Below, piece after piece: positions 35,545 through 46,993 of a stretch of 64,000 bases of DNA. Origin of the DNA: Spirochaetota bacterium (GTDB taxonomy: Bacteria; Spirochaetota; Spirochaetia; SZUA-6); NCBI GenBank assembly GCA_013151965.1, contig JAADHF010000126.1:1-64000 (forward strand), in the 5' to 3' direction. Every line of letters starts with the position of its first letter. Position 1 is the first letter of the stretch. The notes under the pieces were generated by a model that was not told the DNA's origin, did no database searches, and saw only the letters and a list, made by a program, of their open reading frames with translations. The translations under genes and the position numbers were made by a program.

Positions 35545-36417
35545 TTATCTGAATAACTGTAATACCGTCTGCGGTTTTGTGTTTGCCTGTGCAAGCATTG
35601 CTGTTCCCGCCTGTACGAGTATCTGGTCTGTAACAAATTGAACCATCGCTTTGGCCATATCCGTATCACGGATTCTTGATTCGGCTGCCTGAAGATTTTC
35701 GGAACCTACGGAAAGACCTTTCATCGCGAACTCAAGACGATTCTGATATGCTCCGAGATCCGCTCTCTGTTTATTTACTATTGTGAGAGCATTATCAAGA
35801 ACACCGATCGCCATATTTGCCCTGTCCGGACTGGAGAGTGAGATAAATGTTGCTGAATTGGGAAGCCCGTTGGTTCCCTGAATCCCGAGTCCCTGAGCTG
35901 TCATGGTACCTATGTAGATTCTTTCACGCTGGTCCATGTTTGCACCGATATGGAACCACATGCTTGCCGTTATAACATTTTCACCGGTAGGACGTCCGAA
36001 TCTGCCTGTCATTACGTTCATGCCGTTAAACTGTGCATGAGATGCAATCCTGTTTACCTCGTCGACAAGCTGTGAGACTTCTACCTGAATCTGCATTCTG
36101 TCTTCCGAAGAATATATTCCGTTGGAGCTCTGAACAGCAAGTTCGCGCAGCCTCTGCAGAATATCCTCAGTTTCCTGAAGGTATCCTTCCGTTGTCTGAA
36201 TAAAAGAAACACCGTCTTCAGCATTTTTTTCCGCGCGCTGCAGCCCCCTGATCTGGGAACGCATCTTTTCGGAAACGGCAAGGCCGGAAGCATCGTCACC
36301 GGCTCGATTAATTCGATGACCGGAAGAGAGCTTTTCCATATCCTTGTCTACTGCCATGTTGTTAAATTTGAGCTGACGTTGAGCGAAGATGGCACTCATA
36401 TTGTGATTGATGATCAT
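35545..36417 (-). CDS. flaB: Flagellin (FlaB core protein)
   Basis: [19 protein letters not shown]...[32 protein letters not shown]-terminal [40 protein letters not shown]. Confidence 0.97.
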
Positions 36418-36440
36418 ACAATCCTCCTTGATAAATTATT

Positions 36441-36458
36441 AAGGACATCCTTGTCCTT
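36441..36458 (-). promoter_or_regulatory. flaB 5'-UTR hairpin, candidate CsrA-binding site
   Basis: RNA 5'-AAGGACA-AGGA-UGUCCUU-3': perfect 7-bp stem, AGGA loop; contains ACAAGGAUGU. Confidence 0.7.
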
Positions 36459-36473
36459 ATATGCCTACTTTTA

Positions 36474-36500
36474 TACTCGGAATATTAAAATGCCCCTTTA
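36474..36500 (-). promoter_or_regulatory. Sigma28-type promoter of flaB
   Basis: TAAA-N15-TCCGAGTA compared with consensus TAAA-N15-GCCGATAA; about 50-nt predicted leader. Confidence 0.65.
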
Positions 36501-41233: not shown

Positions 41234-41237
41234 ATCT

Positions 41238-42041
41238 ATTCGTCTTAACAGGGATGTCATACTAAAAACTTCCATAGATATTGCAAGAATCAGAAGAAGC
41301 TGCAGAATTGTCGAAGTTACCCTTAAATATTTAAATGATTTTATAAAACCGGGAATAAGCACAATGAAGCTTGATAAAATTGCGGAATCTTTTATTATCA
41401 GGCAGGGTGGAATTCCCGCACTTAAAGGTTATAGAGGCTTCCCCTCCGCTATATGTACATCGGTTAACAATGTGATTGCCCATGGCAAACCTGATGATTA
41501 TTATCTTGAAGATGGTGATGTAATAACGGTAGATACAACAGTTTCTGTTGACGGCTGGTTCGGCGACGGCGCCTGGACATATTCCGTGGGCAGTAAAACT
41601 CCTGATATTACACGGTTAATCAAAACCGCATGGCAGGCCAGTCTTAAGGGAATTTTATCGGCAAAATCAGGTAATTTTATAGGTGATATCGGTAAAGCAA
41701 TAGAGGGCGCTGTTATTAACACAGGCTGTTCTGTTGCCCAGGATTATGCGGGACATGGTATCGGCAGAAATATTCATGAAGAGCCTGTAATACCGAATTT
41801 CGGTGAGAAAAACTCCGGTATCAGAATAGTTCCGGGAATGGTTTTTACTATCGAACCGATGGTGGCTCTCGGTGAATCATCGGTGAAAAAAACCGGAGAC
41901 GGCTGGACTCTGATTACCGCTGATAACAGTATGTCTGCACAATTTGAACATACCGTTGCCGTTTTCAGAGATTATACCGAGATACTTACTTTTTCAACAG
42001 GAAAAATCGAGGATTATCTTGACTTTCCGCCGTTCTTCTAA
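41238..42041 (+). CDS. Type I methionine aminopeptidase (copy 2), probable ATT start
   Basis: VDTTVSVDGWFGDGAW, YAGHGIGRNIHEEP, TIEPM, QFEHT; frame is open upstream of the track ATG (41364) and encodes (I)RLNRDVILKTSIDIARIRRSCRIVEVTLKYLNDFIKPGIST, homologous to the map1 N-terminus; gaggtgaatctATT. Confidence 0.85.
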   Translation: MRLNRDVILKTSIDIARIRRSCRIVEVTLKYLNDFIKPGISTMKLDKIAESFIIRQGGIPALKGYRGFPSAICTSVNNVIAHGKPDDYYLEDGDVITVDTTVSVDGWFGDGAWTYSVGSKTPDITRLIKTAWQASLKGILSAKSGNFIGDIGKAIEGAVINTGCSVAQDYAGHGIGRNIHEEPVIPNFGEKNSGIRIVPGMVFTIEPMVALGESSVKKTGDGWTLITADNSMSAQFEHTVAVFRDYTEILTFSTGKIEDYLDFPPFF

Positions 42042-42976: not shown

Positions 42977-45900
42977 ATGAAAAAGTCAATTATACTCATT
43001 ATGTTACTCTTCATAACTGTACGGCTTTTTGCACAGTATATTCCTCCGAACGGAACGGAAGATATTTTTAATTATTATTCTCCGGTTTTCCTTTCCGGAG
43101 GTGCTGCAGTTACAAGCGCGGAGTCCCCCCTGGCGGATTCTTTAAACCCCGCTGTTGCGGGCAATAAACAGAGAACTACAATTGATGTGAATTATATCGG
43201 GCTTGCAGGTTTAGGAAGTGAAAGCGGGTGGGGTAATATAATTAATTCCGGGATTACACTTCCGACAAGGTATGGGGTGTTTTCAGGTGCATTACATTTT
43301 CTGCAGTCTCCGTTTGCGGGAATCAATATGGGAGTTCTCGGAGGACTTGATCTGTCATTTTCCAAGGACCTTCTTCCGGAATTACTTGTAGGAGCCGGTT
43401 TGTCTTTCAGGGCAGGGGCAGGGGAGATAGGAGATTGGGGGCTTGGTTTAAACCTTGGTATACTCGGCTTTCTCGATAATGTATGGATTTTTAAGGATTT
43501 TAAGTATGGTATAGCAATAAAAGATATGGGCAAGGGATATAAACCGGTTACCGGAAGGAGTGCTTTTCCGCCTATATTTACACCATCTGTAAGTACGGAT
43601 TTCAGTGTGTTAAAAAATGATCTTTTTTCAGTCAGATTTTCTACTGATATAACGCTTCCGAGTTTTCAGGATTTCCGGTTTCTGGCAGGAGCGGAGATCG
43701 GTTATAAAGATTTTATATTTCTCCGTTCGGCATACCAGTTTGATCTCATGGAACTTATCAGTAATGATTTAAGCGGACGAACCTTTCCTGTATCCTTCGG
43801 AGGAACGGTTAAAATTAAAACTTCCATTAAAGATAATATAAACTTTCTCGGCATATCCGAAAAAGGCTGGAACCGCAGCGAGATAAATATTAACTTCTCC
43901 GCCGCACCGCTTCAGAACGGAACATGGGGTTTCGGCCTCGGAGTTAATATTCCTCTCGGTGTTATAGATAAAACTCCCCCGTCGATAACTCTTGGTTCTA
44001 AAGACATCGAATATATTTCGCCTAACCTCGACGGTGTACTGGATAACCTTGTAGTTCCCTTAACTATTACGGACGAGCGTTATATTAAGGGTTATAATTT
44101 TATTATTCTCGATTCCGGCGGGAGTAAGGTTCGTACGATTGTAAACAAGGATGTACGGCCGGAAAACCTGACATTCAAGAATATAATGGACAGGCTGCTG
44201 TATGTTAAAAAAGGAATAACGGTTCCCGAAAAGTTAGTCTGGAATGGTAAATCCGATAACGGAAAAGTCGCGGCGGACGGAAATTATACATACTATGTGG
44301 AAGCATGGGATGATAACGGTAATATCGGAAAAAGCGGCATAAAGAGGGTTGTAGTTGATAATACAAAACCTTCGGTGAAAGTAACTTCGCCGTACCTTGT
44401 TTTTTCACCCAATGGAGACGGAAGCAAGGATACTTTAATAATAAATCAGGATGGAACAAAAGAGGATCTCTGGCAGGCATTTATTAAGGATACCGAAGGG
44501 AATCTGATCAGGAAGTTTTCATGGAAGAATAAAAAACCGCTGAAGTTAGTATGGGATGGTAAAAATGATGGCGGAATCCTTGCAAAGGACGGTGTCTATA
44601 ATTATCGAATTACAAGTACCGACCGTGCAGGGAATACAGGTTCGGGATCTTTAATAAATATTATTATAAATACTCAGGCAACGCCGATTAATATAAACAT
44701 CGATAAATCTTATTTTTCACCTAATAACGATAAAATAAAAGATACAATTAATTTTAATTTAAATGTTCCCATAACTTCCGGAATAGAAAAGTGGAACCTT
44801 GTTGTAAAGGATTCGGGCGGAAAGGCAGCCAGAACTTTTTCAGGGAAACAGGAAATTCCGGCGATTATAAGTTTCGACGGAAAAGGTGATAAAGGAAATA
44901 TCTTACCGGAAGGAAAATACAGTGCCGAACTGCATGTAAATTATATAAACGGCAATAATCCCAATGCAGTATCGCCTGACTTTTATATTGACATTACAAA
45001 GCCTGTTGCAAGTTTAAAAAGCGACACAAATATTTTCTCACCGAATGGGGACGGAAACAAGGATACGGTTACAATTTTTCAGGAAACATCGGAAGAATTA
45101 AACTGGAAAGGTATAATAAAAGATAATAACGGCGAAATTGTAAAAAATTTATTCTGGAGAGGAAAGGCGGATTCCAAAATATCCTGGGATGGCAGAAATG
45201 ATAAAGGAATGCTTGTTCCCGACGGCTCTTATACCTATCAACTGGAAACAACGGACAGAGCGGGAAACTATGGTAAATCCAATATAATTTCAATGGTTCT
45301 TAATACTCAGGAAACACCTGTTTTCCTTTCCACTGATCTTTTGTATTTCTCGCCTAATTCGGATGGCAGTAAGGATAGTATCAGGATAATTCCTCACTTA
45401 AAGATCGAAACAGGAATAGAAAGTTATAATCTCATCATTAAGGATAAGGATGGTAATTCAGTCAGAGAATATTCGGGAAGAAAGAGTGTTCCGAAAGATT
45501 TTGTCTGGGACGGGCTTGATAAGAACAGCAGCCGGGTTAAAGAGGGAGAATACTATGCTGAAATTAATATACTTTACAGTAACGGCAATAATCCGGGTGC
45601 AAAAACACAACTTTTCACTATCGACAATACATTCCCGGTTGTAAAGGTATCTGTTTCTCAAAAAATATTTTCTCCTGATAATGACGGAAACCTCGACACA
45701 CTGACTTTTAATCAGAAATCGAGCAGAGAAGATCTCTGGGATGGTACGATTTTAAACGATAAAGACGAAATCGTAAAATCATACTTCTGGAAGGGTACTG
45801 CAGCTTCGTTTAAGTGGGACGGCAGGGATGAGAATGGGAATAAACTTCCGGATGGCACCTATACTTATAAGGTGCAGTCAACGGACAAGGCAGGAAATAA

Positions 45901-46993
45901 AACAACCGCGGAAATAAGGAGTATTGTTATAGATACAAGACCGACGGCTGTTTTTATAACAGTTCAGGCACGGGGACTTTCTCCTAACGGCGACGGATAT
46001 ATGGATAACATATCATTCAGAATATATATTTCACTGGCAGAGGGAATATCATCGTGGAATTTAAAGATGGTAAATGATAAAGGGAAAGCGGAAAAAGTCT
46101 TTAAGGGTTCGGCAAAAGTTCCGCCGGTGATTGTATGGGATGGCAGGAACAGCAGGGGAAAAGTGTCCGAAGGAACTTATACGGGAGAAATTACCGTTAA
46201 TTATACCAAGGGCAACAGACCGACTGCGAAAACAAATAGTTTTCGTGTCGATATAAGTCCTCCCCGGGTTGATTTGAATATAACTCCGAAGTTATTTTCT
46301 CCTGATAATGACGGTGTGAATGATGAACTCTACCTGAACCTGAAAATAAATGATTTAAGTCCCATATCCTCATGGACAATAAATATTTTGGATCCCATGG
46401 GTAATTTATTCAGTTCATTCGGAGGACTTGGAGTTCCTTCCGATAGAATAGTATGGAATGGTATTTCGGATACAGGAGAACTTGTCCAGGCTGCGGAAGA
46501 TTATTCTCTTGTATTTACAATCAAAGACGATTTGGGCAATGTGCGTACGGTAAAAAGGATAATTCCCGTAGACGTTCTTGTAATTCGTGAAGGGAATAAA
46601 TTAAAAATCAGGATATCCAGTATAACCTTTGCTCCGAATAAGGCGGACTTTATAACGATAGACAAAACAAAAGCGGGGAAGAATAAGAAAACCCTTAAAC
46701 GTCTTGCCGAAATTCTTAAGAAATACAGGCGTTATAATATAAGAATCGAGGGTCATGCGGTTAATCTGTCATGGAACGATCCCAAAAAGGCGGAGAAAGA
46801 GGAAATAGAGGAATTAATTCCGCTTTCACTCGATAGAGCGAAAGCAGTAAAAAAAGCACTGGTGGAATTGGGAATAAACGCAAATCGTATTACAACTGCA
46901 GGCCTGGGAGGTTCACAGCCGGTTGTTCCTTTCAGTGACAGGGAAAACAGGTGGAAAGACAGAAGAGTAGAATTTATCCTTATTAGAAAATGA
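42977..46993 (+). CDS. Multidomain outer-membrane protein: N-terminal PorV/UPF0164-like barrel, 8 FlgD-type Ig-like repeats, C-terminal OmpA domain
   Basis: Signal peptide; eight S-P-N/D-x-D-G-like motifs (e.g. FSPNGDGSKDT); OmpA-like NIRIEGHAVN...LSLDRAKAVKKALVELGINANRITTAGLGGSQPVVPFS...NRRVEFIL-type end. Confidence 0.85.
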   Translation: MKKSIILIMLLFITVRLFAQYIPPNGTEDIFNYYSPVFLSGGAAVTSAESPLADSLNPAVAGNKQRTTIDVNYIGLAGLGSESGWGNIINSGITLPTRYGVFSGALHFLQSPFAGINMGVLGGLDLSFSKDLLPELLVGAGLSFRAGAGEIGDWGLGLNLGILGFLDNVWIFKDFKYGIAIKDMGKGYKPVTGRSAFPPIFTPSVSTDFSVLKNDLFSVRFSTDITLPSFQDFRFLAGAEIGYKDFIFLRSAYQFDLMELISNDLSGRTFPVSFGGTVKIKTSIKDNINFLGISEKGWNRSEININFSAAPLQNGTWGFGLGVNIPLGVIDKTPPSITLGSKDIEYISPNLDGVLDNLVVPLTITDERYIKGYNFIILDSGGSKVRTIVNKDVRPENLTFKNIMDRLLYVKKGITVPEKLVWNGKSDNGKVAADGNYTYYVEAWDDNGNIGKSGIKRVVVDNTKPSVKVTSPYLVFSPNGDGSKDTLIINQDGTKEDLWQAFIKDTEGNLIRKFSWKNKKPLKLVWDGKNDGGILAKDGVYNYRITSTDRAGNTGSGSLINIIINTQATPININIDKSYFSPNNDKIKDTINFNLNVPITSGIEKWNLVVKDSGGKAARTFSGKQEIPAIISFDGKGDKGNILPEGKYSAELHVNYINGNNPNAVSPDFYIDITKPVASLKSDTNIFSPNGDGNKDTVTIFQETSEELNWKGIIKDNNGEIVKNLFWRGKADSKISWDGRNDKGMLVPDGSYTYQLETTDRAGNYGKSNIISMVLNTQETPVFLSTDLLYFSPNSDGSKDSIRIIPHLKIETGIESYNLIIKDKDGNSVREYSGRKSVPKDFVWDGLDKNSSRVKEGEYYAEINILYSNGNNPGAKTQLFTIDNTFPVVKVSVSQKIFSPDNDGNLDTLTFNQKSSREDLWDGTILNDKDEIVKSYFWKGTAASFKWDGRDENGNKLPDGTYTYKVQSTDKAGNKTTAEIRSIVIDTRPTAVFITVQARGLSPNGDGYMDNISFRIYISLAEGISSWNLKMVNDKGKAEKVFKGSAKVPPVIVWDGRNSRGKVSEGTYTGEITVNYTKGNRPTAKTNSFRVDISPPRVDLNITPKLFSPDNDGVNDELYLNLKINDLSPISSWTINILDPMGNLFSSFGGLGVPSDRIVWNGISDTGELVQAAEDYSLVFTIKDDLGNVRTVKRIIPVDVLVIREGNKLKIRISSITFAPNKADFITIDKTKAGKNKKTLKRLAEILKKYRRYNIRIEGHAVNLSWNDPKKAEKEEIEELIPLSLDRAKAVKKALVELGINANRITTAGLGGSQPVVPFSDRENRWKDRRVEFILIRK
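44400..46290 (+). repeat. ABABAB super-repeat inside the OmpA/FlgD-Ig protein, period about 630 bp
   Basis: Module A (E-D/E-L-W...AFIKD, TDRAGN) alternates with module B (SGIEKWNLVVKD, VNYINGNNPNA) three times. Confidence 0.75.

Follow-up and report, generated by a model that had tools for sequence, protein, structure and literature searches.

Control of flagellin synthesis by CsrA has been established in other bacteria, and the closest described counterpart of the leader examined here is that of Campylobacter jejuni flaA, in a different phylum (PMC4894983). In the flaA leader of ~45 nt there are two stem-loops with ANGGA loops, of which the second covers the ribosome site; CsrA repression was demonstrated by mutation, two-step gel shifts and footprints, with FliW as the antagonist, and flaA has further been reported to titrate CsrA and to have a polar localisation (PMC4894983). 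In Bacillus subtilis, hag carries two CsrA sites, one of them on the Shine-Dalgarno (SD) sequence (Yakhnin 2007, via passages of PMC7652899 and PMC6529632). According to the same passages, FliW antagonises CsrA there and csrA is located downstream of fliW; flagellin holds FliW, and free FliW removes CsrA (PMC6529632). In Escherichia coli glgC, CsrA is held at a hairpin-loop site and from there reaches across to the SD (PMC7652899). Among spirochaetes, CsrA represses FlaB in Borrelia burgdorferi (Sze 2011, as cited in a passage of PMC9481697), CsrA sites have been predicted near the flaB1 and flaB2 SDs of Treponema denticola (passages of PMC9481697), and CsrA binds the flaB leaders of Leptospira, where a GGA hexaloop lies 6-7 nt before the start (passages of PMC8668096).

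Here we describe a spirochaetal flaB leader that, judged by its sequence, is very probably a two-site CsrA operator. Like C. jejuni flaA, it has the two-site layout and a sigma28-type promoter, varies between species by compensatory changes and occurs alongside csrA and fliW, whereas flaA has a third GGA in its second codon. With two predicted CsrA sites, one of them on the SD, this leader also resembles hag, but B. subtilis has a single external flagellin and spirochaetes have several periplasmic ones. The likeness to glgC lies in tethering and bridging, while glgC is a metabolic gene controlled by the CsrB/C RNAs and not by FliW. The first hairpin of the leader is absent from the passages of PMC9481697 and PMC8668096 that deal with CsrA and spirochaete flaB.

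The window analysed, a 64,000-nucleotide stretch of one contig, belongs to a Spirochaetota genome of 3.6 Mb in 143 contigs (94% complete). Its flaB gene (35545..36417, minus strand) encodes a core flagellin of 290 amino acids with Flagellin_N (E 6e-43) and Flagellin_C (E 1e-25) domains. On the minus strand, hairpin 1 (H1; 36440..36459) of the flaB leader reads UAAGGACA-AGGA-UGUCCUUA: AAGGACA (36458-36452) pairs with UGUCCUU (36447-36441) around an AGGA tetraloop (36451-36448), and an outer U36459-A36440 pair extends this 7-bp stem to 8 bp. A GGA is thereby displayed inside a hairpin loop 5' of the SD, and H1 is presumed to be the upstream candidate high-affinity CsrA site. No other NGGA tetraloop closed by 7 Watson-Crick pairs or more was detected on either strand of the window, dinucleotide-shuffled versions of which gave 0.1 per strand. 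When the 83-nt leader was shuffled 20,000 times with its dinucleotides preserved, an equally good one arose in 4 of the shuffles. The minimum-energy fold of a 56-nt stretch (RNAfold, -11.0 kcal/mol, z = -2.2) includes H1. The distance from the GGA of H1 to that of the SD is 23 nt, as a preliminary description of this DNA had estimated; its sequence and coordinates for the AAGGACA/UGUCCUU stem and AGGA tetraloop were also right, apart from the additional outer pair, and its wording of a "textbook" CsrA-ligand hairpin is fair.

The core of the CsrA SELEX consensus, also pointed out in that description, is indeed present within H1 (ACAAGGAUGU), but is nonspecific alone: ACARGGAUGU occurs 32 times genome-wide, including 3 copies in the window, and we rejected it as a genome-wide marker, since most copies seem to lie in reading frames and only that of flaB combines a long stem with an SD. 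Among 30 genome copies checked, the flaB copy has the longest stem (8 pairs; the runner-up has 7), and no other copy is followed by an SD and a start codon. The window copies at 41248 and 44145 were discarded as CsrA targets; both are within reading frames and their GGA has no surrounding hairpin. Two other genes of the window were noted in passing. A methionine aminopeptidase-like gene (41235-42041, plus strand), listed with an ATG at 41364, probably starts further upstream, because the frame from ~41236 (IRLNRDVILKTSIDIARIRRSCRIVEV) reads as the N-terminus of a methionine aminopeptidase-like protein. A 1338-amino-acid protein (42977-46993, plus strand) contains repeated FSPNGDGxKD and WDGRNDxG segments, and its C-terminal region looks OmpA-like.

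Upstream of H1, a sigma28-type promoter-like sequence (36473..36500, minus strand) could be read directly, with TAAAG at 36500-36496 and CCGAGTAT at 36480-36473, such that TAAA-N16-CCGA spans 36500-36477. Among 93 related flaB genes, 33 have the pattern T[AC]AA-N14-17-CCGA in their upstream regions, compared to 2.7 expected from shuffles, in line with the promoter proposed in the preliminary description. Two features of sigma28 dependence are present, namely a TAAA-N(15-16)-CCGA promoter pattern and a FliA-type sigma factor; the latter, of the FliA/WhiG family, is encoded in the genome at L086 895-1683. Transcription from the predicted start would yield a leader of ~50 nt containing both CsrA sites.

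A scan of GTDB genomes provided 80 Spirochaetota flaB loci, which together with second copies and own-genome paralogues gave 93 non-redundant leaders, and H1 was anchorable in 87 of them. The H1 stem varies by compensatory substitutions around the ANGGA loop, with pair 5 occurring as GC (18), CG (17), AU (15) and UA (8). Pairs 1-7 each displayed paired counts above every one of 2000 shuffles, counts that overstate significance because related sequences are not independent. Double changes were found in all of six H1 pairs, with 91.6% of cells paired. When both helices were considered in a 60-sequence alignment, 82.8% of cells were paired, 11 of 12 pairs had double changes, and the covariation score was 0.538, whereas shuffled alignments scored 0.203 (sd 0.015) and slid versions no higher than 0.201. 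Because the anchor fixes A.GGA by construction, only the stems and the N of ANGGA, which drifts in both sites, count as independent evidence. Stem and loop, whose conservation in relatives had been proposed as a check, are thus both conserved, the stem with compensatory changes.

In several related flaB leaders H1 is absent, or is found 39-57 nt from the SD. Treponema-like leaders (L055, L063-L066, L068, L070, L074, L076, L079) have a different layout, with H1 ~40-57 nt from the SD, several SDs reading AAAGGAGT, and often an extra hairpin between H1 and the SD, such as GCCGTC-ATGG-GACGGC in L074. In the L056 flaB leader (upstream of 1501), a long perfect hairpin without GGA, CAGTTTCAGACTTAAGTCTGAAACTG, stands in place of H1, and the SD hairpin TTC-AAGGAG-GAA is retained; this leader may have lost the upstream CsrA site.

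The SD itself reads as a second CsrA-like site, C-A-N-GGAGG, whose N drifts as it does in the H1 loop. Site 2 of the window's flaB, AUC-AAGGAG-GAU around the SD (36421..36432, minus strand), is delineated by consensus, by a covarying stem in the GGAGGA class and by the fold; the SD AAGGAGG occupies 36429-36423, and ANGGAG is displayed in the loop of a second, short hairpin, which is weak here, having 3 bp or, in another register, 7 pairs with G-U pairs among them. CA-N-GGAGG was found in 98% of 85 flaB leaders with GGAGG (N being A in 70, C in 6, U in 5 and G in 4), whereas CA precedes N-GGAGG in 1 of 24 (4%) non-flagellin genes with GGAGG, and pairing with 16S rRNA does not require this C-A. 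In 64 leaders of the GGAGGA class, a second stem covaries around the SD (AAUC/GAUU, CAUC/GAUG, UUC/GAA and others), its third pair being formed in 52 of 64 compared to 30 in shuffles, and places ANGGAG in the hexaloop of a short hairpin. Leaders of the GGAGGG class, which is characteristic of a second flaB copy, keep C-A-N-GGAGG and have no stem, and the SD motif therefore outlives the stem. The flaB paralogue at C3:28444 was seen to have a perfect 6-bp SD stem, AGUUUC-AAGGAG-GAAACU. The preliminary description correctly placed a second GGA in the SD, at what is a bridging distance from H1 (23 nt), but its reading was incomplete, missing the conserved ANGGAGG site and its frequent location within a hairpin of its own.

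We built a covariance model from both hairpins. In the own genome it matched the three flaB genes with 52, 37 and 36 bits (E 1.5e-8 to 1e-4), matches that are expected, because these sequences, or the near-identical L002, helped to build the model. The informative part is the absence of other matches: beyond the three flaB genes, nothing in the 3.6-Mb genome exceeded 20 bits, the next match having an E of 0.45. That fourth-ranked match (C126) was dismissed as noise: it is a hairpin in the leader of a different gene, and its GGA is part of the stem and not of the loop. H1 on flaB, as given in the preliminary description, is present, but all three flaB paralogues and the spread through the phylum had been missed. 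At E <= 0.01 the model matched 182 of 394 Spirochaetota genomes, representing 95 of 155 genera, and in other genomes each of the 28 top-ranking loci inspected is followed by a MIINHN flagellin, flaB. Matches were found in 172 of 323 csrA-positive and 10 of 71 csrA-negative genomes (odds ratio 6.9). Three of these ten, in family f14, are false positives, no flagellin having been found in the family; the remaining seven do have flaB but are assemblies of several contigs, so that csrA may simply be missing from them. In a same-order genome lacking csrA, neither flaB nor a model match was found. A search of Rfam returned only chance-level matches, none above the gathering score.

Twenty genomes (L189-L208, ~1-2 Mb), which we take to be Borrelia-type from their FlaB sequence and genome size and which, where listed, the model missed, all carry a hairpin of 6-7 bp with an NGGA loop. 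Its stem exhibits compensatory changes (GGC/GCC, GGU/ACC, GAC/GUC), its loops are AGGA, GGGA and UGGA, closed by AA-NGGA-UU instead of CA-NGGA-UG, and CA-N-GGAGG follows downstream at the SD. These genomes have a diverged, covarying first hairpin.

The own genome has a single csrA (C3:19145), which overlaps the fliW end and is positioned behind flgL (Pfam FliW E 3e-40, CsrA E 5e-26). The solved structures closest by sequence are 5dmb_A for FliW (E 3e-27) and 5dmb_D for CsrA (E 1e-18), two chains of one PDB entry. The CsrA protein is 49% identical over 69 residues to B. subtilis CsrA and comprises 98 amino acids versus 74, with a longer C-terminal tail. L4, R6 and R44, the RNA-binding residues of CsrA, are kept in the alignment to B. 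subtilis CsrA, and alignment to the PDB chains 5dmb_D and 1t3o_A gave the same pattern. A C-terminal extension of CsrA has been reported as the binding place of FliW (PMC7652899), so that this protein appears to possess both the RNA-binding residues and the extension for FliW. The gene order flgN-flgK-flgL-fliW-csrA is common with T. denticola (passages of PMC9481697). The distance from the flgL-fliW-csrA cluster to the other two flaB paralogues is ~7-9 kb (L083, C3:26466-28444, minus strand), and the window's flaB is on a different contig from the cluster. Finding this cluster answered the suggestion to look for csrA and fliW elsewhere in the genome and, together with the conserved loop and compensatory stem changes, supports the CsrA circuit on the core flagellin that the preliminary description had put forward.

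Other functions for the hairpins can be weighed against this evidence. A 5' hairpin often stabilises a highly expressed mRNA, and H1 might be such a CsrA-independent stabiliser, or the landing site of another protein, with the GGA loop incidental; the long hairpin without GGA in the L056 leader would fit. Such a stabiliser would not need an ANGGA loop common to families with a drifting N, nor a matching ANGGAGG at the SD, and the model matches track the presence of csrA, so that we consider this explanation very improbable. Slightly less credit still is given to an SD hairpin acting alone, as an RNA thermometer or intrinsic control of accessibility, with CsrA irrelevant to site 2. It draws on the folding of the SD site, which forms stems of 4-7 bp in 38 of the 85 flaB leaders that have GGAGG versus 1 of 24 other genes, but the GGAGGG class keeps C-A-N-GGAGG without any stem, and the stem of the window's flaB is weak. 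The perfect short inverted repeat close downstream of the promoter could also recall an intrinsic terminator or attenuator; no U-run follows the hairpin (AAUAAUUUAUC), and the conserved element is the loop and not a U-tract, leaving this idea with a probability close to nil.

In our model of a two-site CsrA operator, H1 almost certainly lets CsrA switch flagellin translation off. The architecture, its covariation, its specificity for flaB and the genes for CsrA, FliW and a FliA/WhiG-type sigma factor were directly observed; from these we infer CsrA binding, repression, the direction of control and relief by FliW. RNA polymerase with sigma28 would produce flaB mRNA with the ~50-nt leader, and a CsrA dimer would dock on the ANGGA loop of H1 and, tethered there, bridge through its second pocket to ANGGAGG at the SD, blocking the ribosome. 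The 23-nt spacing falls in the preferred bridging range, for which an optimum of >18 nt and a range of 10-63 have been given (PMC7652899). The adjacency of fliW and csrA hints at a partner switch like that of B. subtilis: export of flagellin into the growing periplasmic filament would free FliW, which would remove CsrA from the leader and permit flagellin translation. Flagellin would thus be translated only while it can be assembled, because the FliW freed by export would take CsrA away. The sign of control can differ, since csrA overexpression raised flaB transcripts in Leptospira interrogans (PMC8668096).

CsrA control of flagellin has known precedents in other bacteria and, in part, among spirochaetes, and what is added here is its phylum-wide extension; we found no account of phylum-wide paired covarying hairpins in the open-access literature, of which our coverage was partial, making this weak evidence. 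An unlikely but broader interpretation is that the two-hairpin operator is ancient, inherited with fliW-csrA since before the split of Spirochaetota and Campylobacterota and not invented anew, and that in spirochaetes with several flagellins its graded strength among flaB paralogues, with a strong H1 on the window's flaB and no SD stem left in the GGAGGG class, determines in which order or proportion the flagellins enter the filament.

Collectively, our analysis describes a covariation-supported RNA element for post-transcriptional flagellin control that is conserved across much of a phylum in which regulation of motility genes is said to act mostly after transcription. The element covers all three flaB paralogues of the genome and predicts exact loop mutations, and it offers a concrete structural proposal for the CsrA sites of Borrelia-type flaB leaders, where repression by CsrA has already been reported.
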